NCBI GenBank assembly: GCA_022340465.1
Contig: JAJDNW010000130.1
Span: 62,001 to 126,000, forward strand
DNA from: Deltaproteobacteria bacterium
GTDB taxonomy: Bacteria; Desulfobacterota; Desulfobacteria; Desulfobacterales; B30-G6
DNA: 64,000 nucleotides
Direction of reading: 5' to 3'
The notes under the pieces were generated by a model. It saw only the letters and a list, made by a program, of their open reading frames with translations. It ran no database searches and was not told where the DNA came from. A program made the translations under genes and the position numbers. Positions 33,083 through 48,227 of this stretch are shown piece by piece (position 1 is the first letter of the stretch; every line of letters begins with the position of its first letter).

Positions 33083-34519
33083 TTAATCAAGTCGATATAG
33101 GGTCGATCCTTTGCGGTTGATCCGTGATTCTTTGCGCGAAGCACCGACATATTTCCGGATCAGGCGGTGGGCCTTGCTCTGGCTGATGTTTAAATAAGCG
33201 GCCACCTTATAGGAGCTTTTCAGCATGTGGTAGGCTTCGACGACCAATTTGCGGGTAAGGCTTTCCAGAGCCGCGTCGAGGCCCTGGGGGGCGCCGTCCA
33301 ATTGAAATGTAGTGACGGTTTGCCTGGAGAACGCCGGTGGCAGATTTCCCGGCTTGACTTCACCGTTGTCGACCGTGGCGGCGACCAGTTCAGTGGTGTG
33401 CATGAGTTCCCTGATATTGCCGGGCCAATGGTATGCCAGCAGGGCATCGGCTGTCTCGGAAGACAGGGTGTGAATTTTTCCGAACTGCTTGTCGAATTGA
33501 CCGAGGTAGTAGTTGGCCAGCGGCAGGATATCCTGGGAGCGCTCTTTCAAAGGGGGGATTTCGATTTCGATCACCTTGAGGCGGTGGTAGAGATCACTCC
33601 TGAAGGTCTGGTTGGCCACCATGGCATGCAGGTCCCGATTGGTGGCGCAGATGATGCGGATGTCCAGCGATTTGGTCCGGTTTCCCCCAACGGGCGTGAG
33701 CTGTCTCTCCTGAACGACTTCGAGCAGTTTTGCCTGCAGGTGCAGGGGAAGTTCGGCGATTTCATCGAGCAGCAGCGTCCCTCCGCCGGCCAGCTCGATC
33801 CTGCCGATGCGGCCTTTGGGGTGGGCGCCGGTGAAGGCGCCGCCGGCATAACCGAACAGTTCGGTTTCGATCAGTTCGTTGGGAATAGCGGCACAGTTGA
33901 TGCTTACAAAGGGATGCTGCGATCGATGGCTGACTTCATGAATGTATCTGGCGAGGACCCCTTTTCCGGTGCCGGATTCGCCCAGGAGGATGACACTGGC
34001 GTCGATCGGTGCGATCTGAGAGGCGTAGGCAATCAGCTCCTTGAACCGGGGGCTCTGCCCGATCAGGCCGAAGGTGCCCACGTCGGAATTCAGTTTTGGG
34101 TTGATTTCATCCCGAAATTCCGACACCAGCCGGTTGGCCTTTTCCAACTCCTGCTTGATGATTTCCAGCTGGGTGATGTCCCGCGCGTTCTGAACCACCA
34201 TTTCAAGCTTGCCGTTTTCACTAAATACCGGTGTCGCCGTCACCAGCAGGGTTTTGCCGATGTTGGTTTTCTGGACGATGTTGACCTGCCGCCTTTCCCG
34301 CATGACACGGTGAATGATGGGGGGGGAGTAGTACCCCTCGTCGACCAGGGATTCGGCCCTGCGGCCCAGGACATCGGCGGATTTCAACCCGTAATGGCGT
34401 TCGCAGATCGGGTTTACATAGATGACGACGCCCCCGGCGTCGGTGACGAATATTTCGTCGTAGGAGCTCTCGAGTATTTTGAACAACGTATTGCGCTGAA
34501 GGTCTGCGACCCTTTTCAT
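33083..34519 (-). CDS. Sigma-54-dependent activator with PAS domain
   Basis: A 478-residue enhancer-binding protein. A PAS domain (about 10-120) senses an unknown signal in the cytoplasm. The AAA+ domain has Walker A GESGTGKG, the sigma-54 contact loop GAFTGA, and LLDEIAELP as Walker B. The C-terminus carries a helix-turn-helix (VAAYLNISQSKAHRLIRKY). No receiver domain is present, so ligand binding to PAS is the likely trigger. AGAAGG lies before the ATG. It is next to a sigma-54 promoter driving a sulfotransferase/kinase operon, its probable target. Confidence 0.9.
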   Translation of the reverse strand: MKRVADLQRNTLFKILESSYDEIFVTDAGGVVIYVNPICERHYGLKSADVLGRRAESLVDEGYYSPPIIHRVMRERRQVNIVQKTNIGKTLLVTATPVFSENGKLEMVVQNARDITQLEIIKQELEKANRLVSEFRDEINPKLNSDVGTFGLIGQSPRFKELIAYASQIAPIDASVILLGESGTGKGVLARYIHEVSHRSQHPFVSINCAAIPNELIETELFGYAGGAFTGAHPKGRIGRIELAGGGTLLLDEIAELPLHLQAKLLEVVQERQLTPVGGNRTKSLDIRIICATNRDLHAMVANQTFRSDLYHRLKVIEIEIPPLKERSQDILPLANYYLGQFDKQFGKIHTLSSETADALLAYHWPGNIRELMHTTELVAATVDNGEVKPGNLPPAFSRQTVTTFQLDGAPQGLDAALESLTRKLVVEAYHMLKSSYKVAAYLNISQSKAHRLIRKYVGASRKESRINRKGSTLYRLD

Positions 34520-36515: not shown

Positions 36516-38555
36516 TTAGTTCTTGCCCGATTTTTCTGCCGCCTGCCTTTCTTTGTGCAGGACGGAATCGATGGCGGCGTCGAGTTCGTCGATGGTCAGG
36601 ACGTCGAGGGCCTGGCGGACCTCCTGCGGGACGTCGCTGAGGCTGACGCTGTTTTTAGAGGGCAGCACCACGGTGCGCACGCCGGCGCGGTGGGCGGCCA
36701 GCAGCTTTTCCTTGATCCCACCCACGGGCAGGATGCGGCCGGTCAGGGTCAGCTCACCGGTCGTGGCGGTTTCGCGGCGGCAGCAGCGGTTGGTGATCAA
36801 CGATATCAGCGCCATGGCGATGGGCAGCCCGGCCGAGGTCCCGTCCTTGGGGGTGGCGCCGGCCGGCACGTGGATGTGGAGGTCGTGCTGCTCGAAAAAA
36901 TCGTCGGCGATGCCGTAACGCCGGCTGTTGCTGCGGATGTAGCTCAGGGCGGCCTGGGCCGATTCTTTCATGACCGAACCCAGGGAGCCGGTCAGGATCA
37001 GGTTGCCGCTGCCCCGCATCTTGGTGGCTTCGATGAAGACGATTTCTCCGCCCGCATCGGTCCAGGCCAGGGCCGTGGCTACGCCCACGCGATCCTTTGC
37101 CTGGGCAACCTCGAAGAAAAACTGCGCCGGTCCCAGGTAATTTTCCACGTCTCCCTCCGCGATCACGTCGGTCGACTGGTGCAGGTTGCCGTCGAGCCGG
37201 TTCAGGGCGATTCTACGGCACATGGCGGCCAGTTTGCGCTGCAGGTTGCGCAGGCCGGGTTCGCGCGTATAGTCGCGGATGATCTTACGCACGGCGCCCT
37301 CGTCAAAACGGACCGGATCGTCGCGCAGTCCGGCGGCCTTGAGTTCCCTGGGGATCAGATGATTGAAGGCGATGCGGACCTTTTCGTCCTCGGTGTAACT
37401 GGACAGCCACAATATCTCCAACCGGTCCAGCAAGGGGGGCGGAATATTGTCGAGGTGGTTGGCGGTGGCGATGAACATGATCATGGACAGGTCGAAGGGC
37501 ACATCCAGATAGTGGTCCATGAAGTGGGGGTTCTGCTGGGGGTCCAGGATTTCCAGCAGGGCGTCCGCCGGGTCCCCCTTGAAATCCTGGCCGATCTTGT
37601 CCAGTTCGTCCAGCATGAAAACCGGGTTGTTGGTTTCGCAGCGGCGCAGTTCCTGGATAATCCTGCCCGGCAGGGCGCCCACGTAACTGCGCCGGTGACC
37701 GCGCAACTGGGCCTCGTCCTTCATGCCGGCCAATGAGATGCGCACAAATTTGCGCTGCAGGCTGCGGGCGATAGACATGCCCAGGGAGGTCTTGCCGGTT
37801 CCCGGCGGGCCCACGAAACACAGGACCGGCCCGGCCGCTTTCAACTTGTCCCGGTTGGGTGCCAGCGCCTTTTTTACCGTGCGGCGTATGTCGTCCAGCT
37901 TGAGCGGCTTGGCCAGGAATTGATAGGAACCTTTTTTCATGGCTTCCACGGCGGTGGGTACGGTGGCGTAGCCGGTGATGATGATGACTTCGGTATCCGG
38001 GTGGTCCTGTTTGGCCTGCGCCAGCAACGTCATGCCGTCCACCTTGTCCATCTTCAGGTCGGTGAGGATCACGTCGAACCTGTTTTGGACGAGTAAATCG
38101 AGCGCTTCGGCCCCGTTTCGGGCCGTAAGGACCTCGTAGCCCTCCTTTTCCAGCACGTGCTCCAGGTTCATGCGCGTCATTTTCTCATCGTCGACCACCA
38201 GCATCCTGGGGCGCCGCGTGGCGTGCAGGATCCGCACGGCCAGATGTTCCAGGATGCGGAGCTTCAGGTCCTCCAGCCCGTAATGCTCGGAATCCAGAAT
38301 GGATTTGGCTGCCTCCAGGTCCAGGCGGTCTTCGCTTGACCGGTCCCAGGGCAGGCTGGTCAAAAAATCGACGTAATTGATACCGATGGTGTATTCCGCG
38401 CTACCGGGGCCCATTTTCGCGATGCGGTCGATCTCCTTGGAAACGGATTTGAGGACATCCGGCGGCATGCCGGCGGTCTGAATCGCCTGGTGCATTTCAT
38501 CGATTTCCGTAAAACCAGGAGTAACGTCGTTTTCGTCCTTTTTGAACAGCCTCAT
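36516..38555 (-). CDS. Lon-type protease with inserted receiver domain
   Basis: A 679-residue ATP-dependent protease with unusual architecture. The Lon N-terminal substrate domain is missing. Residues 25-115 match the helical segment before the ATPase (YGLEDLKLRILEHLAVR). A complete receiver domain (117-235) follows, with VVDDEK, phosphoacceptor D166 in LTDLKMD, T194 and K216. The AAA+ motor has GPPGTGKT (249-256) and FMLDELDKIG. The protease domain has the Ser-Lys dyad S574 (KDGTSAG) and K617 (GGIKEK), spaced as in Lon. Phosphorylation should therefore gate proteolysis; that is inference. It is divergent from the USP operon and lies near a sensor kinase. Confidence 0.9.
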   Translation of the reverse strand: MRLFKKDENDVTPGFTEIDEMHQAIQTAGMPPDVLKSVSKEIDRIAKMGPGSAEYTIGINYVDFLTSLPWDRSSEDRLDLEAAKSILDSEHYGLEDLKLRILEHLAVRILHATRRPRMLVVDDEKMTRMNLEHVLEKEGYEVLTARNGAEALDLLVQNRFDVILTDLKMDKVDGMTLLAQAKQDHPDTEVIIITGYATVPTAVEAMKKGSYQFLAKPLKLDDIRRTVKKALAPNRDKLKAAGPVLCFVGPPGTGKTSLGMSIARSLQRKFVRISLAGMKDEAQLRGHRRSYVGALPGRIIQELRRCETNNPVFMLDELDKIGQDFKGDPADALLEILDPQQNPHFMDHYLDVPFDLSMIMFIATANHLDNIPPPLLDRLEILWLSSYTEDEKVRIAFNHLIPRELKAAGLRDDPVRFDEGAVRKIIRDYTREPGLRNLQRKLAAMCRRIALNRLDGNLHQSTDVIAEGDVENYLGPAQFFFEVAQAKDRVGVATALAWTDAGGEIVFIEATKMRGSGNLILTGSLGSVMKESAQAALSYIRSNSRRYGIADDFFEQHDLHIHVPAGATPKDGTSAGLPIAMALISLITNRCCRRETATTGELTLTGRILPVGGIKEKLLAAHRAGVRTVVLPSKNSVSLSDVPQEVRQALDVLTIDELDAAIDSVLHKERQAAEKSGKN

Positions 38556-38778: not shown

Positions 38779-38883
38779 CGTTGCACATTGCAACGGTCAT
38801 CCGAACATTGTGTAACAGTTACAACTAATTGAAATAGTTTGATTTATATAAGATATGGGTATGCCCGTTGCAAAAAGCAACGG
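38779..38883. promoter_or_regulatory. Palindromic activator-site candidates upstream of the USP operon
   Basis: Two perfect palindromes with the same half-site, GTTGC-N5-GCAAC, occur at 38,779-38,795 and 38,865-38,883, with TGTAACAGTTACA between them at 38,811-38,823. They lie 75-180 bases above the sigma-54 promoter. They are candidates for binding by the NtrC-type regulator encoded at 44,908-46,272; that link is inference. Confidence 0.55.
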
Positions 38884-38959: not shown

Positions 38960-38974
38960 TGGCACAGAAATTGA
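38960..38974 (+). promoter_or_regulatory. Sigma-54 promoter of the USP operon
   Basis: TGGCAC-AGAAA-TTGA has exact -24 and near-exact -12 boxes with correct spacing. It shares 14 of its 15 bases with the sulfotransferase promoter at 32,844-32,858. The first gene starts 62 bases further on. Confidence 0.75.
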
Positions 38975-39249: not shown

Positions 39250-39807
39250 ATGAAAACAATCTTGTTGGCTGTCGAGGGGATGGCGGCCCATAAAAACGCT
39301 CTGGATTACGCCCTGGACCTGTGCGAACCCGTGCGAGCCGGACTGGACATCCTCCAGATCGTTCGTCCGCGGCGGTATTCCGCAGGCCTGAGCAAAATAA
39401 AAAGGGGCATTTACCGCGCCCGCGATCTGGTGGAGGACGCTATGGTCACGGCCACCTATGCCCAGGCCGGAACGCCTGAACTTGCCGATGCCCTGCGTGC
39501 CACGGCTGAACGACGGGTAAAAGAGCTGATTCCGGACAACATAGACACAACCGTGGGCTATAATTGCGTCGTCACCGGTGAAGACCCCGATGCCGTACTC
39601 GAACGCTATGTTGAAGAACACCACAACATCATCCTGGCCATCTACGATTCGCTGAGATTCGGACGTAAAACCGCATCGGCGCCCGCACCGGCGGCGGAGC
39701 TCGTTTCCGGCTTGTTGAGCAGACTGGCCATACCCCTTGTGTATGTCAAAGACTTGGTACCGAGACCAAAAGAAGAAGGAGGCCAACGTGGGAACCTTTC
39801 TAGATAG
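39250..39807 (+). CDS. USP-like stress protein
   Basis: A 185-residue protein starting MKTILLAVEGMAAHKNALDYALDL, the typical first strand and helix of universal stress proteins. The ATP-binding GxxGx9G(S/T) loop is not recognisable, so it may not bind ATP. It contains TATYAQAGTPELAD around residue 75, the motif shared with both neighbouring genes. AAGGAG precedes the ATG at 39250. Its last 20 bases overlap the next gene. Confidence 0.68.
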   Translation: MKTILLAVEGMAAHKNALDYALDLCEPVRAGLDILQIVRPRRYSAGLSKIKRGIYRARDLVEDAMVTATYAQAGTPELADALRATAERRVKELIPDNIDTTVGYNCVVTGEDPDAVLERYVEEHHNIILAIYDSLRFGRKTASAPAPAAELVSGLLSRLAIPLVYVKDLVPRPKEEGGQRGNLSR

Positions 39808-40342
39808 AATTAAATCACGCACCAAAACAATCGTGGGCAAAGTGGAGAAAACCCAGGAGGACATCACCTTTGCCCAGGCAGGCCACCCCCTGGTGGAAGA
39901 AAAGCAATTCAAAGCGGCCGAGCCCGCCGTTTCCGGGAAACTGCTGGTTGTCGGCCACGAGACGATGTTTTCACAGAAGGTGATCGATTACGCCCTGGAT
40001 ATGGCCCGGCGCATGTCCTACGAAATCGTCGCCCTCAATGCAGCGCCATTATCCTGCAACGCATTCAAGCCTTTTGCCGCCTCCCAGAAAAAATTGTGCG
40101 ATGAATTCCAGCAGCTGTCGGCGGAAAACGTAAAAAGTTTCAAACAGGACGCCGAACGGGTGGGCATTCCTTTCTGCCATGTGGTCAAATTCAGCGAGCC
40201 GGAAAAAGCCCTCGAAATGATCCAGCGGGAATACGACCATATCGATTTCGTCATCAGCGACGAACAACCGGCAGCTTCCGAAGAACGCGTCTCCGACGCA
40301 CAGCGCCCGAGCCAGCAGGTTTACGTCTATTCCATGATTTGA
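39788..40342 (+). CDS. USP-like stress protein with N-terminal AQAG segment
   Basis: A 184-residue protein read from GTG 39788, which follows AAGGAGG. Residues 1-50 are basic and contain DITFAQAGHPLVEE. From about residue 50, KLLVVGHETMFSQKVIDYALDMA and a later hydrophobic strand look like a degenerate universal-stress fold, without an ATP loop. It overlaps the upstream USP-like gene by 20 bases, so the pair is translationally coupled and may form one complex. Confidence 0.65.
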   Translation: MGTFLDRIKSRTKTIVGKVEKTQEDITFAQAGHPLVEEKQFKAAEPAVSGKLLVVGHETMFSQKVIDYALDMARRMSYEIVALNAAPLSCNAFKPFAASQKKLCDEFQQLSAENVKSFKQDAERVGIPFCHVVKFSEPEKALEMIQREYDHIDFVISDEQPAASEERVSDAQRPSQQVYVYSMI

Positions 40343-40655: not shown

Positions 40656-42470
40656 ATGACGCCTGAAATGGTACTCACTCTCGTGATTCTGGCATTTGCG
40701 GTGATTCTGTTTATTTTCGAATGGGTCCGAGTCGACGTGGTCGGCATTATCATGATGGTTTTGCTGCCCCTGACCGGTCTGATTTCGGCCAAGGAAGCAT
40801 TTGTCGGCTTGAGCAGCAACGCGGTCGTGTCCATTATCGCGGTCATCATCATCGGCGCAGGTCTGGACAAGACCGGTGTCATGAACCAGGTGGCCGGGCC
40901 GATTGTCAAATTCGCCGGTAACAGCGAAAACCGTGTCATCAGCCTGATATCGGGCACGGTGGGTGTCATCTCCAGCATGATGCAGAATATCGGCGCGGCA
41001 GCCTTGTTCATGCCGGCGGCTCAACGGATCGCCAAGCGCATGGATATACCCGTTTCGCGCATTCTCATGCCCATGGGCTTTTGTGCCATCATCGGCGGCA
41101 CGGTCAGTCTGGTGGGGGCCAGCCCGACCATTCTGCTCAATGACCTGATGGTACTGGGCGGCAAAAAACTGGAGCCGTTCGGCCTCTTCACCCAGACACC
41201 CATAGGGCTTTGTCTTTTGGCCACGGCCATTATTTACTTTTTGGTTTTCGGCCGGCTGGTACTGCCCGCGGCCAAGGGAGAAGCCGATCGCGGGGTCACC
41301 GCTTCCCTGATGGGGGTGTACAACGCCCTGGAAAGCGCCTTCGAGATCCACCTGCCGAATAATTTCGACGGACCGAAAACCCTGGCCGAACTGGACATTC
41401 GCGGCAAATATCTGGTGACGGTGGTGGCGATCAACCACGCCCGCAAGCGGGACAAAAACCTGGTGCCGCACAGTTTCGACAACATCATGGGCGGAGACGA
41501 CATCGCTGTGGTGGGCCGGGAGGACAACGTTCGCCGCCTGGCTACCGACATGGGATGGGAAATCAGGCCGGGACTGGAAGCATTCGCAGAAATCCTGGCC
41601 CGCACCAGTGCCGGCATGGCGGAAACGGTGGTTTCGCCCCGGTCGGAGCTGATAGGCAAAACCATGAGCGAGGTGAACTTCAAGGACCTCTACAACCTGA
41701 ATCCCCTGGGGCTGATCAGGGGGAGGCGTGTTTTCTACAGTGGACTGACCAAGATTCCCTTGAGCATGGGCGACACCTTGCTGCTGTTCGGCCCCTGGGA
41801 CCGCTTTCATATTCTGAAAAATCAGCCCCAGCCCCGCAGCCTCACCTTTGCCACGCCCCTGGAGGGAGAAATCCTGCGGCCGGAAAAGGCCAAGCTGGCG
41901 GTCATGTGGCTGGCGTTGGCCCTGGCGCAGATCATTTTCCTCAAGGTGCCCCTGGCCGTGGCCCTGATGTCCGGCGCACTGGGCATGATCATCACGCGTG
42001 TCCTGACCATCGACGAAGCCTACCGCTCTGTGGACTGGATGACGGTGTTTCTCCTGGCGGGGCTGATACCGCTGGGCATGGCTTTCGAGAAGACCGGCAC
42101 CGCCGCGTTCATCGCCAAAAATCTCCTGGGTATTCTCGGCTCGCCGTCACCCATCGTGCTCCTGGGGGCCGTAGGCGTTTTGACCTCCTTTTTCACCCTG
42201 GTTATCTCCAATGTGGGTGCCACGGTGCTGCTGGTGCCGCTGTGCATGAACATGGCGGTGATGGCCGGGGGCGACCCGCGCATGGCTGCCCTGGTTGTGG
42301 GGCTTTCGGCGTCGAACACCTTCGTGCTGCCCACGCACCAGGTTAACGCCCTGATCATGCGTCCCGGCGGTTACCGCACCACCGACTATGCCAAGGCCGG
42401 TTCGGTCATGACCCTGCTCTTTCTGGCGGTGGAGCTCACGATACTGTACTTTTTCTATGGAATCCAATAA
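40656..42470 (+). CDS. SLC13/DASS-type transporter with RCK-C domains
   Basis: A 604-residue inner-membrane carrier. N- and C-terminal blocks of hydrophobic helices (from VLTLVILAFAVILFIFEW; and LAGLIPLGMAFEKTG near the end) flank a cytoplasmic middle (about 215-395) with two RCK-C/TrkA-C-like domains (LAELDIRGKYLVTVV; VVSPRSELIGKTMSEV). SLC13-type proteins of this layout carry sulfate or dicarboxylates. The motif VGASPTILLNDL is characteristic. ATG 40656 is preferred over TTG 40650. In a presumed sulfate reducer, sulfate is a plausible but unproven substrate. Confidence 0.85.
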   Translation: MTPEMVLTLVILAFAVILFIFEWVRVDVVGIIMMVLLPLTGLISAKEAFVGLSSNAVVSIIAVIIIGAGLDKTGVMNQVAGPIVKFAGNSENRVISLISGTVGVISSMMQNIGAAALFMPAAQRIAKRMDIPVSRILMPMGFCAIIGGTVSLVGASPTILLNDLMVLGGKKLEPFGLFTQTPIGLCLLATAIIYFLVFGRLVLPAAKGEADRGVTASLMGVYNALESAFEIHLPNNFDGPKTLAELDIRGKYLVTVVAINHARKRDKNLVPHSFDNIMGGDDIAVVGREDNVRRLATDMGWEIRPGLEAFAEILARTSAGMAETVVSPRSELIGKTMSEVNFKDLYNLNPLGLIRGRRVFYSGLTKIPLSMGDTLLLFGPWDRFHILKNQPQPRSLTFATPLEGEILRPEKAKLAVMWLALALAQIIFLKVPLAVALMSGALGMIITRVLTIDEAYRSVDWMTVFLLAGLIPLGMAFEKTGTAAFIAKNLLGILGSPSPIVLLGAVGVLTSFFTLVISNVGATVLLVPLCMNMAVMAGGDPRMAALVVGLSASNTFVLPTHQVNALIMRPGGYRTTDYAKAGSVMTLLFLAVELTILYFFYGIQ

Positions 42471-42532: not shown

Positions 42533-43390
42533 ATGTCAATTATCACGATATCCAGGGGATGCTACAGCCACGGCAAGGAAATCGCCGAGCGCGTAGGGGC
42601 CGCCCTGGGCTATGAAGTCATCAGCAAGGAAATACTGCTGGAAGCATCCGAGGCCTGCGACATTCCGGAAAAACGGCTGTCGTCATCGATTCACGACGCT
42701 CCCGGAATTCTGGAAAGGGTCACCCGCTCGCATGAACGGCAGCATTATCTGGACTGCATCCGGGCGGCCCTGCTGGACCACGTCAGGAATGACAATGTGG
42801 TCTACCACGGCATGGCCGGCCACCTTTTCCTCTCAGGCATCCGACACGTCCTCAAGGTTCGCGTGATCGCCGAAATGGAGGATCGCGTGGCCCTGGTTTG
42901 CAAAACACGCGATATCTCCCGCGACGAAGCGGTTGCCTTGATAGATTCGGAAGACCAGCAACGTGAGGAATGGTATCGTTCGGTTTACAAAAAAGACATG
43001 AGCGATCCCCGTCTTTATGATATGGTTCTGAGCATCGGCCGTTTGACCATAGAGGATGCCAGCGAATTGATTTGCGCCGCATCGGCCAGGGAGAGCTTCC
43101 AGACCACCGCCCAGTCGAAGGGATACGTCGACGACCTGGCCATGGTCGGTCATGTCAGAACCGCGCTGGCCGACCTTTGCGAGGCCGATGTGGCCGTTTC
43201 CGGCGGTATCGTCACGGTCAAGGTCAAGGGGAAGAAACTGCGGGGAACCGATTTTACAAGGCCGGGGATGCAGCAGCGCGTGCAGACCCGCATACGGGAA
43301 GACCTGCAGCAGGACATCATGGCCCGGGTCTCCAAAATACCCGGTGTCAAGGATCTGATCTGCGAAATCGAATTGCCGTATTATGCGTGA
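42533..43390 (+). CDS. Cytidylate-kinase-like protein with BON-like C-terminus
   Basis: A 285-residue protein. The first 200 residues belong to the cytidylate-kinase-like family: ITISRGCYSHGKEIAERVG is a relaxed P-loop, followed by EVISKEILLEAS and later VVYHGMAGHLFL. True CMP kinase is shorter and has a standard GxxGxGKS loop, so the substrate is unknown. The last 80 residues (VRTALADLCEADVAVSGGIV to MARVSKIPGVKDLICEI) look like a BON-type lipid- or ligand-binding domain. It overlaps the sensor kinase gene by eight bases and may supply the signal for it. Confidence 0.72.
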   Translation: MSIITISRGCYSHGKEIAERVGAALGYEVISKEILLEASEACDIPEKRLSSSIHDAPGILERVTRSHERQHYLDCIRAALLDHVRNDNVVYHGMAGHLFLSGIRHVLKVRVIAEMEDRVALVCKTRDISRDEAVALIDSEDQQREEWYRSVYKKDMSDPRLYDMVLSIGRLTIEDASELICAASARESFQTTAQSKGYVDDLAMVGHVRTALADLCEADVAVSGGIVTVKVKGKKLRGTDFTRPGMQQRVQTRIREDLQQDIMARVSKIPGVKDLICEIELPYYA

Positions 43391-44924
43391 TGCAGAGACA
43401 TATGACAAACATAAGGGGGTTGTGACCGCCGTTAAAAAAGCGCTCATGCAGACCAGCATCCGCAAAAAGGTCGAGCTGACCATCGTGGCCTATATTCTGG
43501 TCGCGGGAATTCTGTGGCTGCTTAATTTCCACAACGGCCTGACCCTCAACGAAAAATTACGCATCATCGAAAAAAAGGAAGACCTGCTCAACACCATCCT
43601 GGAAGCCCGGCGCTATGAGAAAAACTATTTTTTGACCGGCAATGCCTCCCATCTGGGAGAAGCGGTGGTCTTTATCTTCAAGGCCGAAGATAAATTGCAG
43701 GATATCATCGCCCACCACGGCGAGTATGCCGCCACCCCGGATCTGGATCAACGTCTGGTCCACCTCAAGGATTACGGCGCCTCCATGGGCGCTCTGGCCA
43801 GCTCGCAGGCAGGAATACAGGGTTTCGTTTCAGGGCCCGTGCCCGAGCAGGAAGCCATCCGGGTCCTGGGCCGCGAAATAACCGAAGAGATCGAAACCAT
43901 GGTGCAGGTCGAGCGCCAGCAGATCAGCCGGTTGATTCGGGACGCCAGATTCTACCACTTCATGGCCCTGGGCGGTCTGCTGATCCTGTCCATTTTCGTG
44001 TTTGTTTTTTTCCGCCTCAATGTCAACCGTCCTCTCAAAGCCCTGGAAAGCGCTATCGGGGACATTGCCTCGGGGCACTACGAGAACATCCCGGCCATTG
44101 GGGCCGGCCAGGAATTCGAATCCCTGGTCGACAGCCTGAACCACATGATCAACCGGCTGAACCGCCGCAACCAGGAGTTGATCCAGGCCAAGAAAATGGC
44201 CTCCTTGGGAACGCTCACTTCCGGCGTGGCCCACGAACTCAACAATCCGCTCAACAACATCTCCACCTCTCTTCAGATTGTGCTCGAAGAGCTGGAGGAC
44301 GAGGATCTCGACTTCAAGCGCGAGTTGCTGGAAGGGGCGGAAAAGGAGGTAGTGCGTGCGCGGGACATCGTCAGGGCCCTGCTTGAATTCTCCCGCCAGA
44401 GCGCTTTTTCCATCAAGCCGGTGGCGATAAAATCTCTGGTGGACGACACCCTCAAGTTGATCAAGGGAGAACTGCCGGCGAATGTGTCGGTCGATCTCAA
44501 CATCGAAAACGACATCCAGGCCGCCCTGGATTTTCGCCGCATGCAGCAGGTGCTGATCAACCTGATGCTCAACGGCATCCAGGCCATGGACCAGGGGGGG
44601 ACGCTCACGATCAGCGCTTTTGAGCGCAGCGGCCATGATTTTTGCATCGAAATCAGCGACACGGGTTGCGGCATTCCAGGCGAAAATTTTTCGAAAATTT
44701 TCGACCCCTTTTTTTCCACCAAGGAGGGCCTGCGAAAATCCGACAGCGACATGCGCCCCTATGACGGCATCCTGGACCAGCAGGGCACGGGCCTGGGCCT
44801 GGCCATCTGCCACGGCATCGTTCAGAAACACGGCGGACGGATTTCGGTAGAGAGCGAGGTCGGGAAGGGAACCACCTTTACGGTTTGTCTGCCGATGGGA
44901 ACGAATCATGACGACTCAAAATGA
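43383..44924 (+). CDS. Membrane sensor histidine kinase
   Basis: A 513-residue kinase. A helix near residue 35 (LTIVAYILVAGILWLL) and another near 200 (MALGGLLILSIFVFVFF) bracket a periplasmic sensor domain of about 150 residues, followed by HAMP, HisKA with the phospho-His in VAHELNNPLN, and HATPase (GCGIP, GTGLGLAICHG). It overlaps the upstream cytidylate-kinase-like gene and the downstream NtrC-type regulator gene, so the three form one unit. The Lon receiver may be a second partner. Confidence 0.92.
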   Translation: MRDAETYDKHKGVVTAVKKALMQTSIRKKVELTIVAYILVAGILWLLNFHNGLTLNEKLRIIEKKEDLLNTILEARRYEKNYFLTGNASHLGEAVVFIFKAEDKLQDIIAHHGEYAATPDLDQRLVHLKDYGASMGALASSQAGIQGFVSGPVPEQEAIRVLGREITEEIETMVQVERQQISRLIRDARFYHFMALGGLLILSIFVFVFFRLNVNRPLKALESAIGDIASGHYENIPAIGAGQEFESLVDSLNHMINRLNRRNQELIQAKKMASLGTLTSGVAHELNNPLNNISTSLQIVLEELEDEDLDFKRELLEGAEKEVVRARDIVRALLEFSRQSAFSIKPVAIKSLVDDTLKLIKGELPANVSVDLNIENDIQAALDFRRMQQVLINLMLNGIQAMDQGGTLTISAFERSGHDFCIEISDTGCGIPGENFSKIFDPFFSTKEGLRKSDSDMRPYDGILDQQGTGLGLAICHGIVQKHGGRISVESEVGKGTTFTVCLPMGTNHDDSK

Positions 44925-46272
44925 AGGGTCCATTCTGGTGGTGGAAGACGAAGCCATCGCCCGCAAAAACCTGGTTCACATTTTAAATAAGCAGGGCTAT
45001 ACGGTGACGCCGGCAGAGAGCGGGTCGAAAGCCCTGTCCCTTTTGGCGGCCGAAACCTTCGACCTGGTCCTCACAGACCTGAAAATGGAAAAAGTGGACG
45101 GCATGGAGGTGCTGGCCGAAAGCCGCCGCCGGCACCCGCTGACAGAAGTGATCATCCTCACCGGCTATGCCACGGTGGACTCGGCCGTCAATGCCCTGAA
45201 AGCCGGTGCATACCACTATGTCGCCAAACCGTACAAGATAGAGGCCATTCGCAAAATCGTCAGCGAAGCCCTCATCAAACGCCGCCTCCAGCTCGAAAAC
45301 CTGCAGCTCAAGGAGAGTTTGAAAACGGGCCGGGCCAAACCGATGGTCGTCGGCCAAAGCCCCCCCATGCAAACCGTGCTGAAAACCGTCCAGCGCATCG
45401 CCCCATCGGGCGCCAACGTCCTCCTTCTCGGCGAAAGCGGAACTGGCAAGGAGATCATTGCACAGACGATTCACGACTTGAGCGACCGGGCCTCGAAGCG
45501 CTTCGTGGCCTTCAACTGCGGTTCTTTCAGCGAGGCGTTGATGGCCAACGAGTTGTTCGGGCATGAAAAGGGGGCCTTCACCGGGGCCAATCAATCCAAG
45601 GCAGGACTGCTGGAAACGGCTTCCGGGGGAACGGTTTTTCTCGACGAGATCGGCGACATGCCCCCCACCATGCAGATTCAACTCCTGCGCGTCATACAGG
45701 AGCGGGAGATGCTGAGGGTGGGCGGAACGGCTCCGGTGCCGGTGGATGTCCGCTTCATCGCCGCGACGCATCGTGACCTGCAGCAGGACGTGGAAGGCGG
45801 CCATTTCCGCCAGGACCTTTTTTTCCGGCTGAATGTCATCGCCATCCGACTGCCTCCGCTGGCCGAACGCGAAGGCGACGTCCCCCTGCTGGCCAATTTC
45901 TTCCTGGCCCGAAAGCGCGTCGCCATGCAAAAGGAGATCAAATCCATCGAGCCGGATGCCATGGAGCTATTGAGCCGCTACAGCTGGCCGGGCAATGTGC
46001 GCGAACTGGAAAACACCATCGAGCGTGCCGTGGCCATGGCCGAAGGTGATGTGGTGCGGGTGGCCGATCTGCCGCCCCATATCAACCAGCTGACCATAGA
46101 GACCTATCGCCATGCGTCTGGTGAAATCCCCACTCTGGAAGAAATGGAAAAGCGCTATATCCTGTGGGTGCTGGAGAAGCACAAAGGGAATAAGACCAAG
46201 GCATCCGCTGCCATGGGAATAGATCGGGTATCCCTGTGGCGCAAGATCAAGCGTTATGGTATCGAGGATTAG
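44908..46272 (+). CDS. NtrC-type sigma-54 response regulator
   Basis: A 454-residue regulator. The receiver (about 8-125) has VVEDE, phosphoacceptor D57 in LTDLKME, and VAKPYK. The AAA+ domain carries GESGTGKE, the GAFTGA loop (HEKGAFTGANQ), and FLDEIGDMP. The C-terminal Fis-type helix-turn-helix is KTKASAAMGIDRVSLWRKI. It is coupled to the sensor kinase. The most likely targets are the sigma-54 promoters of the USP operon and the STAS-like gene. Its receiver is strikingly similar to the one inside Lon. Confidence 0.93.
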   Translation: MTTQNEGSILVVEDEAIARKNLVHILNKQGYTVTPAESGSKALSLLAAETFDLVLTDLKMEKVDGMEVLAESRRRHPLTEVIILTGYATVDSAVNALKAGAYHYVAKPYKIEAIRKIVSEALIKRRLQLENLQLKESLKTGRAKPMVVGQSPPMQTVLKTVQRIAPSGANVLLLGESGTGKEIIAQTIHDLSDRASKRFVAFNCGSFSEALMANELFGHEKGAFTGANQSKAGLLETASGGTVFLDEIGDMPPTMQIQLLRVIQEREMLRVGGTAPVPVDVRFIAATHRDLQQDVEGGHFRQDLFFRLNVIAIRLPPLAEREGDVPLLANFFLARKRVAMQKEIKSIEPDAMELLSRYSWPGNVRELENTIERAVAMAEGDVVRVADLPPHINQLTIETYRHASGEIPTLEEMEKRYILWVLEKHKGNKTKASAAMGIDRVSLWRKIKRYGIED

Positions 46273-46373
46273 GCCAGCAAAAAATTCAGCGGACGAAATC
46301 CGTTTTTCAGGGCATCCAGCGATGGGACCGTTCCGACGGGTGTGAGTGGAATCGGGTGGAGAGTTCAAGAAAC

Positions 46374-48227
46374 ATGAAGAGCAACACCAGCGGGAAACCT
46401 GAAAAAGCGGCGGAAGAGGGGCCGGCCCTGGTCCTGAATGAGGAAACGGGACCCGCGTCCTCGGTGCCGGCTGTGCCCGAAGGAATTACGGCACACAAAA
46501 AAGGGGGCATGGGGCAGTTAGCCGCCACGGCGATCTGCGGTAACGACATAACCTCATCCTGCCTGTATGTGTCCGCCCTGGCCATCATCTATGCCGGCCG
46601 GTGGGCACCGCTGGTGCTGCTGATGGTGGCCGGCGTACTTTTCTTGTTTCGATCCATCTATGCGGAGGTGGTAGGGGCGCTGCCGCTCAATGGCGGCGCT
46701 TATAATGCGCTGTTGAACACCACCAGCAAGTACCGGGCATCCATCGCCGCCTGCCTCACGCTTCTTTCCTACATGGCCACAGCCGTCATATCGGCCAGTG
46801 AGGCCATGCACTATGTGCACGTCATGTGGAACGGCTTTCCGGTTACCGCGGCGACGATCAGCGTTCTGGCGTTTTTTATGGTACTGACGATCATCGGCAT
46901 CACCGAATCGTCCCGCGTGGCCATCTTTATTTTTATATTCCACCTGACGACGTTGACGCTGCTGATTGGTGCCAGCATCGTTTACATCAGCGGTGCCGGT
47001 GTCGAGACGTTGCTGAGCAATCTGGGCACAAGAGCTCCGGATGGATTGTTCACCGCCCTTTATTTCGGCTTTGCAGCTTCCCTGCTGGGTATTTCGGGCT
47101 TCGAAAGCTCGGCCAACTTCGTGGAGGAACAAGCCGAGGGGGTCTTCCCCAAAACCTTGAGAAACATGTGGGGGGCGGTCACCCTTTTCAACCCCATGAT
47201 GGCCTTGTTGGCCCTGGCCCTGGTACCCATCGGCCATGTCGGGGGGCACCAGGAGGCCCTGCTGGCCCACATGGCCCAGATTTCCAGCGGCATGTGGCTG
47301 GCCGATCTTATTTCCGTCGATGCCGCCCTTGTGCTGAGCGGCGCAGTGCTGACGAGTTTCATCGGTGTCAACGGGCTCGTGCGGCGCATGGCGCTTGACA
47401 GGTGCCTGCCGCAATTTTTACTGAAGACCGGTCGCCGGGGGACCACCCACCGGATCATCATTGCCTTTTTTATGCTTTGCGTATCGATTTTTCTGATCAC
47501 CGAAGGTCAGTTGAAAGCGCTGGCCGGCGTCTATACCATCTCCTTTCTGGCGGTCATGGCCCTGTTCGGCCTCGGCAACATATTTCTGAAAACGAAACGT
47601 GCAGGCCTTCCCCGGCCCACGGTGGCGCCCCTGATGTCCGTCCTGGTCGCCGTGGCAGCCGTCATCGCCGGTCTGGTCGGCAATGCCGTGATGAATCCAC
47701 CCTATTTGGCGGTATTTCTGGAGTACTTCGCCTTTGCCCTTCTGGTCGTATCCGTTATGCTGGGCCGCATCATCATTCTTCAGGCCTGTCTGTTTATCGT
47801 AAGAGGCATTCTCAAATATTTCATCGGCCGCATGACCTTCATTTCCAGAATGCTGCGCGACAAGATCGATGAGATCAATTCACAGCAGGTGGTCTTCTTC
47901 ACCCGGGGAGACAATCTGGCCAATCTCAACAAGGCTATTTTGTACGTCCAGCAAAATGAACATACCAACCGCCTCAAGGTGGTTACGGTGATTCCGGAGA
48001 AGGGTGAGATCGCGCCTAACCTGAGAAGGGATCTCGACATGCTCGACGAAACGTACCCCGGCATCGATATCGAACTGGTCGTTCAGGTAGGCAAATTCGG
48101 GCCGGAAATGATCGAGACGCTTTCAAAACAATGGAACATTCCGACGAACCTGATGTTCATCGGTTCCCCGGGCACCCATTTCCTGTACGGCCTTGCCGAA
48201 CTGGGGGGAGTCCGCCTGATTATCTGA
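46374..48227 (+). CDS. APC-family amino acid permease with USP-like tail
   Basis: A 617-residue protein. About 45 polar residues precede a block of roughly 12 hydrophobic helices typical of APC permeases (AATAICGNDITSSCLYV; LPLNGGAYNALLNTTSKY; SLLGISGFESSANFVEE). The last 130 residues are soluble (QQVVFFTRGDNLANLNKAIL to MFIGSPGTHFLYG) and resemble a universal-stress-type domain. The substrate is unknown. The gene follows the two-component pair and faces the potassium-uptake genes. Confidence 0.85.
   Translation: MKSNTSGKPEKAAEEGPALVLNEETGPASSVPAVPEGITAHKKGGMGQLAATAICGNDITSSCLYVSALAIIYAGRWAPLVLLMVAGVLFLFRSIYAEVVGALPLNGGAYNALLNTTSKYRASIAACLTLLSYMATAVISASEAMHYVHVMWNGFPVTAATISVLAFFMVLTIIGITESSRVAIFIFIFHLTTLTLLIGASIVYISGAGVETLLSNLGTRAPDGLFTALYFGFAASLLGISGFESSANFVEEQAEGVFPKTLRNMWGAVTLFNPMMALLALALVPIGHVGGHQEALLAHMAQISSGMWLADLISVDAALVLSGAVLTSFIGVNGLVRRMALDRCLPQFLLKTGRRGTTHRIIIAFFMLCVSIFLITEGQLKALAGVYTISFLAVMALFGLGNIFLKTKRAGLPRPTVAPLMSVLVAVAAVIAGLVGNAVMNPPYLAVFLEYFAFALLVVSVMLGRIIILQACLFIVRGILKYFIGRMTFISRMLRDKIDEINSQQVVFFTRGDNLANLNKAILYVQQNEHTNRLKVVTVIPEKGEIAPNLRRDLDMLDETYPGIDIELVVQVGKFGPEMIETLSKQWNIPTNLMFIGSPGTHFLYGLAELGGVRLII

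Follow-up and report, generated by a model that had tools for sequence, protein, structure and literature searches.

We found that a Lon protease encoded in the window (the whole 64,000-nt stretch of DNA that was analysed, in which all coordinates are positions) carries a complete receiver domain inserted just before its Walker A strand, and that its gene lies close to those of a membrane histidine kinase and an NtrC-type regulator. Here we describe the anatomy of this protein, REC-Lon, together with its conservation, gene linkage, receiver kinship and promoter footprint. We propose, with a probability of roughly 0.6, that REC-Lon provides the proteolytic output in a branched two-component system, in which phosphorylation of D166 turns proteolysis up. 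The usual control of bacterial proteases is through adaptors or tags on their substrates. With a receiver built into the AAA+ motor, proteolysis would come under the direct control of a sensor kinase, and synthesis and breakdown would both be set by one kinase. By analogy, REC-Lon of the window most likely belongs to an already published kind of protein, that of DVU3303 of the sulfate-reducing bacterium Desulfovibrio vulgaris, which a report of 2011 presented as a Lon-containing response regulator (PMC3333781, available portions of the text). The features of the locus are listed in the table.

Table. Features of the REC-Lon locus in the window.
Feature	Position	Strand	Basis or remark
REC-Lon, 679 aa	36516..38555	-	open frame with Pfam, Lon alignment and AlphaFold model
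Parts of REC-Lon			three-helix linker, aa 14-111; receiver, aa ~112-238; AAA+ and lid, aa 240-457; Lon protease domain, aa 465-667
Receiver insert, aa 112-238, phospho-acceptor D166	37842..38222	-	Pfam and alignment of homologues
Palindrome CGTTGC-N5-GCAACG, putative regulator-binding site 1	38779..38795	.	
Palindrome CGTTGC-N5-GCAACG, putative regulator-binding site 2	38866..38882	.	87 bp from site 1
Sigma-54-like promoter TGGCAC-N5-TTGA	38960..38974	+	points away from lon; position derived from offset and sequence
Small protein, 60 aa	39036..39218	+	opens the divergent operon; carries the recurrent hairpin motif
USP-like protein 1	39250..39807	+	weak Usp match, E 2.2e-4, below the Pfam cut-off
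USP-like protein 2	39740..40342	+	by position and conservation; no Pfam match
CitMHS-type transporter	40656..42470	+	with TrkA_C domains
Cytidylate-kinase-like protein	42533..43390	+	
Membrane histidine kinase	43383..44924	+	HAMP, HisKA with H284, HATPase_c; proposed phosphodonor
NtrC-type regulator	44908..46272	+	D57, GAFTGA, HTH_8

The open reading frame given in a preliminary description of this DNA is real, and D166, T194, K216, S574 and K617 each lie where that description placed them. Pfam identified Response_reg (PF00072) at residues 119-227 (E 6.7e-29), followed by AAA (245-381), Lon_lid (406-457) and Lon_C (465-667), and the protein scored 698.8 bits against the NCBIfam model 'endopeptidase La' (TIGR00763), above the cut-off of 608.05. 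The receiver triad D166, T194 and K216 is in the right motifs, and the Lon catalytic residues comprise the Ser574/Lys617 dyad, Walker A K255 and Walker B D316-E317. With these domains and key residues present, the description of a complete receiver inside a Lon with an intact dyad was borne out. The same was true of the loss of the usual substrate-recognition domain: Pfam found no N-terminal Lon domain in REC-Lon of the window, nor in any of 39 REC-Lons whose sequences were trimmed to the start of the window protein. Upstream of residue 30, the open frames of 56 REC-Lons offer 0-152 residues, too few for a globular N-domain. Judged by these comparisons, the window protein represents the core of a LonA and falls short of the complete enzyme, the globular N-terminal substrate-binding domain being the missing part. 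Two further genes of the same genome match the Lon protease domain strongly and over nearly its full length.

REC-Lon aligned to Thermus Lon in two blocks, residues 14-111 with 247-344 and residues 237-662 with 348-771. Because linker and core align on both sides, the receiver fills the short loop before Walker A: in the alignment to solved Lons, it amounts to ~125 extra residues in a loop of about three residues, bordered by a helix ending at residue 113 and by the strand 244-248, which runs into the Walker A motif. The Lon linker is documented by structure entry 4ypn, titled as a fragment with a three-helix bundle and an AAA-alpha/beta domain. The preliminary description had put the receiver in place of the N-domain linker; the alignment of residues 14-111 to Thermus Lon rules out such a replacement, and what is missing is the globular N-domain. 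An AlphaFold model (39 sequences, mean pLDDT 81.8, pTM 0.70) contained a complete receiver fold at residues 117-236 and matched full-length Lon with a Z score of 32.7 and an rmsd of 2.7 over 523 residues.

The LonA proteases of E. coli, Bacillus, Meiothermus and Thermus share with REC-Lon the AAA+ core, the lid, the Ser-Lys protease domain and the three-helix linker; REC-Lon differs from them in being without the globular N-domain and in having a receiver inserted into the loop that precedes Walker A. NtrC-type regulators (REC-AAA+-HTH) resemble REC-Lon in combining a receiver of similar sequence with an AAA+ ATPase in one chain, but in them the receiver stands N-terminally of the entire AAA+ module, and the output is transcription, not proteolysis. 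The Lon of Xanthomonas citri is an ordinary Lon that is not known to carry a receiver. Its activity was reported to be under phosphorylation control (PMC5784255, in the portion available). A laboratory construct of Meiothermus LonA with the N-domain removed ('AAAP') is, like REC-Lon, a Lon core without the N-domain, but has no receiver; according to the accessible part of the report, it degrades alpha-casein but not thermally unfolded protein, which indicates that a Lon without the N-domain can be active but choosy (PMC8087443). Since REC-Lon is without the N-domain, we expect that it would act on a narrow set of targets, probably through disordered stretches or an adaptor, and would have no role in general quality control. 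With its natural loss of the N-domain, REC-Lon may serve as a model for selection by a bare Lon core.

To assess conservation, we aligned 56 distinct proteins (REC-Lon of the window and 55 relatives). The positions of the phospho-Asp, the Thr or Ser, the Lys, the Walker A Lys, Ser574 and Lys617 were kept in all 56, and the stretch 112-238 counted 127 residues in every one, so that the insert length is constant. A motif pattern missed many members of a divergent subgroup, yet the alignment keeps the Ser and the Lys in 56/56, and a dead protease in that subgroup was rejected. The window comes from a draft genome of 162 contigs, in which an assembly artefact or a chance fusion might be suspected; such an origin is refuted, and its probability rendered negligible, by the same architecture and insert length in 56/56 aligned proteins from many genomes and by the presence of REC-Lon in named records of several groups. 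In a tree built without the receiver, a fully supported branch parted the REC-Lons from 22 ordinary Lons.

Full-length REC-Lon was found in the genomes of 10 of 58 relatives. Among the 389 genomes of the class, 80 encode REC-Lon by our own count, and the wording 'rare arrangement' in the preliminary description is too strong for this lineage. In a separate set of 80 loci, 38 carry a full-length REC-Lon. Named records with the full-length protein include members of Desulfobacterales, Desulfovibrionales (48-53% identical) and Nitrospirota, a wide spread that covers Desulfobacterota and Nitrospirota here. One IMG/VR contig classed as viral (L194, 1-5687) has a REC-Lon gene at one contig end, adjoining open reading frames that were read as repressor-like and Mu-like from sequence, with no family search behind the reading; by this gene content, it is probably host DNA flanking a provirus.

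The gene set of the window, or just its kinase-regulator core, recurs at other REC-Lon loci. Among 79 loci (the window, L194 and duplicates left out), an NtrC-type regulator was encoded within 10 kb of REC-Lon in 63, and in all 63 a histidine kinase gene lay beside that of the regulator. Where both flanks exceeded 8 kb, kinase and regulator were found in 24 of 25 loci; the 16 loci with no regulator within 10 kb include many at contig ends. In the window, the regulator gene is directly followed by a gene for an amino-acid permease-type transporter (46362-48227, + strand), and ~2 kb from REC-Lon (33083-34519, - strand) lies the gene of a second sigma-54 activator, which has PAS where a receiver would otherwise be.

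We compared the receiver of REC-Lon with other receivers of the same genome, in which it had 77 matches. Besides itself, its best match was the receiver of the partner regulator, encoded ~7 kb away (E 1.4e-38, 54%), and the next-best receiver had an E value of 6.6e-31. In a tree of 111 of the 262 receivers, one group (73 rows, SH-aLRT 90) took in all 36 Lon receivers together with 35 of the 41 high-scoring sigma-54 regulator receivers that were sampled. On the simplest reading of these sequences, the inserted receiver derives from the partner regulator or its ancestor, and we infer that it still answers to the partner's kinase. Since the Lon receiver is nearest to that of the regulator and the kinase gene adjoins the regulator gene (63/63), the kinase of the window fits as the phosphodonor of REC-Lon. 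In a comparison of Lon and regulator receivers, for which rows of eight weak loci were left out, only a single position separated the two kinds; no Lon-specific surface was found, and that candidate was dropped.

With almost no positions of its own, the Lon receiver might be a phosphate sink or a docking module without control over the protease, and nothing computed here couples it to the ATPase. A sink would need neither the AAA+ and protease residues, which are kept in 56/56, nor the constant insert length, and we regard such a role as very unlikely. The receiver is anchored through both of its ends, one following the first AAA+ helix and the other preceding the Walker A strand. In the mechanism that we prefer, activation of proteolysis by phosphorylation of D166, this anchoring inside the AAA+ module is what matters: phosphorylation of D166 would most likely alter nucleotide handling or ring assembly and would thereby raise proteolysis; the direction of the effect is the presumed one.

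Between lon and the divergent operon, the exact palindrome CGTTGC-N5-GCAACG occurs twice, and nowhere else within the whole window; the genome has 7 copies of its 15-bp core, and this control region accounts for 2 of these. The shorter form TTGC-N5-GCAA was found upstream of REC-Lon in 52 of 87 regions (81 sites versus 1.1 expected), the 87 including several same-place pairs (e.g. L041/L117, L085/L164 and L102/L116), and 21 of 29 spacings between neighbouring palindromes were 85-91 bp. After 3 regions shorter than 300 bases were dropped, 84 were scanned for sigma-54-like sites: 81 sites in 69 regions point away from lon and 22 sites in 21 regions point toward it, with ~12 expected in either direction. 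Expected counts for both kinds of site were obtained from mononucleotide shuffles. The palindrome pairs and the sigma-54-like sites pointing away from lon suggest that the NtrC-type regulator most likely drives the divergent operon, in agreement with the regulation of DVU3302-3298 and of its own operon by DVU3305, as given in the accessible text (PMC3333781). Taken with the kinship of the receivers, one sensor kinase of the window would phosphorylate two related receivers: that of the NtrC-type regulator, which would switch on the divergent stress-protein/transporter operon from sigma-54, and that of REC-Lon, to which phosphotransfer would take place at D166.

In D. vulgaris Hildenborough, DVU3303, DVU3304 and DVU3305 are, as in the window, a Lon-containing regulator, a kinase and a DNA-binding sigma-54 regulator, for which a three-component system was proposed (PMC3333781, in part). 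The available text of the same report already suggested phosphorylation-dependent proteolysis for DVU3303, and the idea of a switch is not new. Targets of DVU3305 are listed elsewhere (PMC4641369, in part). The targets of the three-component system include UspA-type proteins and an anion transporter (PMC3333781, PMC10102598), and the operon of the window is similar in this respect. The window differs in that lon is divergent from one gene run that also holds kinase and regulator, and in an added cytidylate-kinase-like gene. The likeness of REC-Lon of the window to DVU3303 is drawn from the published description, in the portions available. In the literature covered, mostly outside subscription journals, we found no biochemistry of REC-Lon beyond the accessible parts of PMC3333781, PMC10102598 and PMC4641369.

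A transposon screen of 2023, as far as its available text shows, gave pairwise cofitness above 0.9 for DVU3303, DVU3304 and DVU3305 (PMC10102598). The same-signed fitness of the three genes favours a Lon that acts together with kinase and regulator; transposon polarity is possible, given the consecutive numbering of the genes and the wording 'its own operon' in the accessible part of PMC3333781. On chlorate, DVU3303-3305 were detrimental, so that their loss helped, whereas the transporter DVU3299 was important (fitness -2.3) and its loss harmful (PMC10102598, in part). The opposite signs of the signalling genes and their target transporter do not fit simple activation, and plain activation does not explain the chlorate result.

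Phosphorylation might instead turn the protease off, with the unphosphorylated enzyme degrading a component of the response that the signal spares. A receiver can act by repression, and chlorate is a condition under which losing the whole system is of benefit; the same-signed and highly correlated fitness of the Lon, kinase and regulator mutants nevertheless speaks against an off-switch, unless polarity accounts for it, and we consider an off-switch unlikely (PMC10102598, in part). REC-Lon might also degrade the partner regulator or kinase and so end the response. Tight gene linkage and near-identical receiver features would suit docking on the same kinase, but a negative regulator should oppose the fitness sign of the regulator, and the sign reported in the available text is the same, with a correlation above 0.9, which makes such feedback quite unlikely (PMC10102598). 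With the partners known and D166 as the key residue, whether phosphorylation switches proteolysis up, as we propose, is open to simple tests.

New here are the conservation of key residues and insert length (56/56), the kinship of the receiver with the partner regulator, the kinase-regulator linkage (63/79 loci) and the paired palindromes with a sigma-54-like promoter at the divergent operon. A new lead is a hairpin motif shared by the co-regulated proteins. This motif ('M.A.TFAEAGE..TA.EI', ~25-35 residues) turns up in proteins of the regulator's operon that otherwise have little in common: in a small protein of ~60 residues, in the central part of one stress protein and at the beginning of another, in a small membrane protein and in the tails of lone receivers. 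It is present in the first gene of the divergent operon in the window and also at L095, L100, L108, L119, L134 and L158. It resembles TPR weakly, with matches to TPR_4 in 7 of 36 (best E 0.005). At a threshold of at least 10 bits, there were 154 domain hits versus 0 in 59 control loci, which total only 0.21 Mb.

Of 130 context loci, 63 had the motif; it occurred in 45 of the 87 that include REC-Lon and in 18 of the 43 that do not. Behind the loci without REC-Lon in the stretch stand 30 genomes, 7 of which contain a full-length REC-Lon junction and one a cut-off case (G396); no junction was found in the motif-bearing genomes of L125, L126, L132, L134, L147, L151 and L178, which are drafts, so that absence is not proof. 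Among the 58 relatives, 11 genomes have REC-Lon (full length in 10, truncated by a contig end in G042), and 6 of these 11 contain the motif, as against 4 of the other 47 (Fisher p 0.0017, relatedness ignored). Judged by this distribution, the motif goes with the kinase-regulator system and not with REC-Lon by itself; its presence also in genomes with no REC-Lon found marks it as a feature of the regulator's operon. REC-Lon could be a phosphorylation-gated protease dedicated to the hairpin as a tag, which would take over from the missing N-domain as docking signal or degron, a role that we hold to be highly improbable; if it were so, kinase signalling would raise synthesis and turnover of the tagged proteins together. 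At L100, L101 and L158, small proteins consisting of a receiver followed by a FAEAGE-type tail are encoded near kinase-regulator genes.
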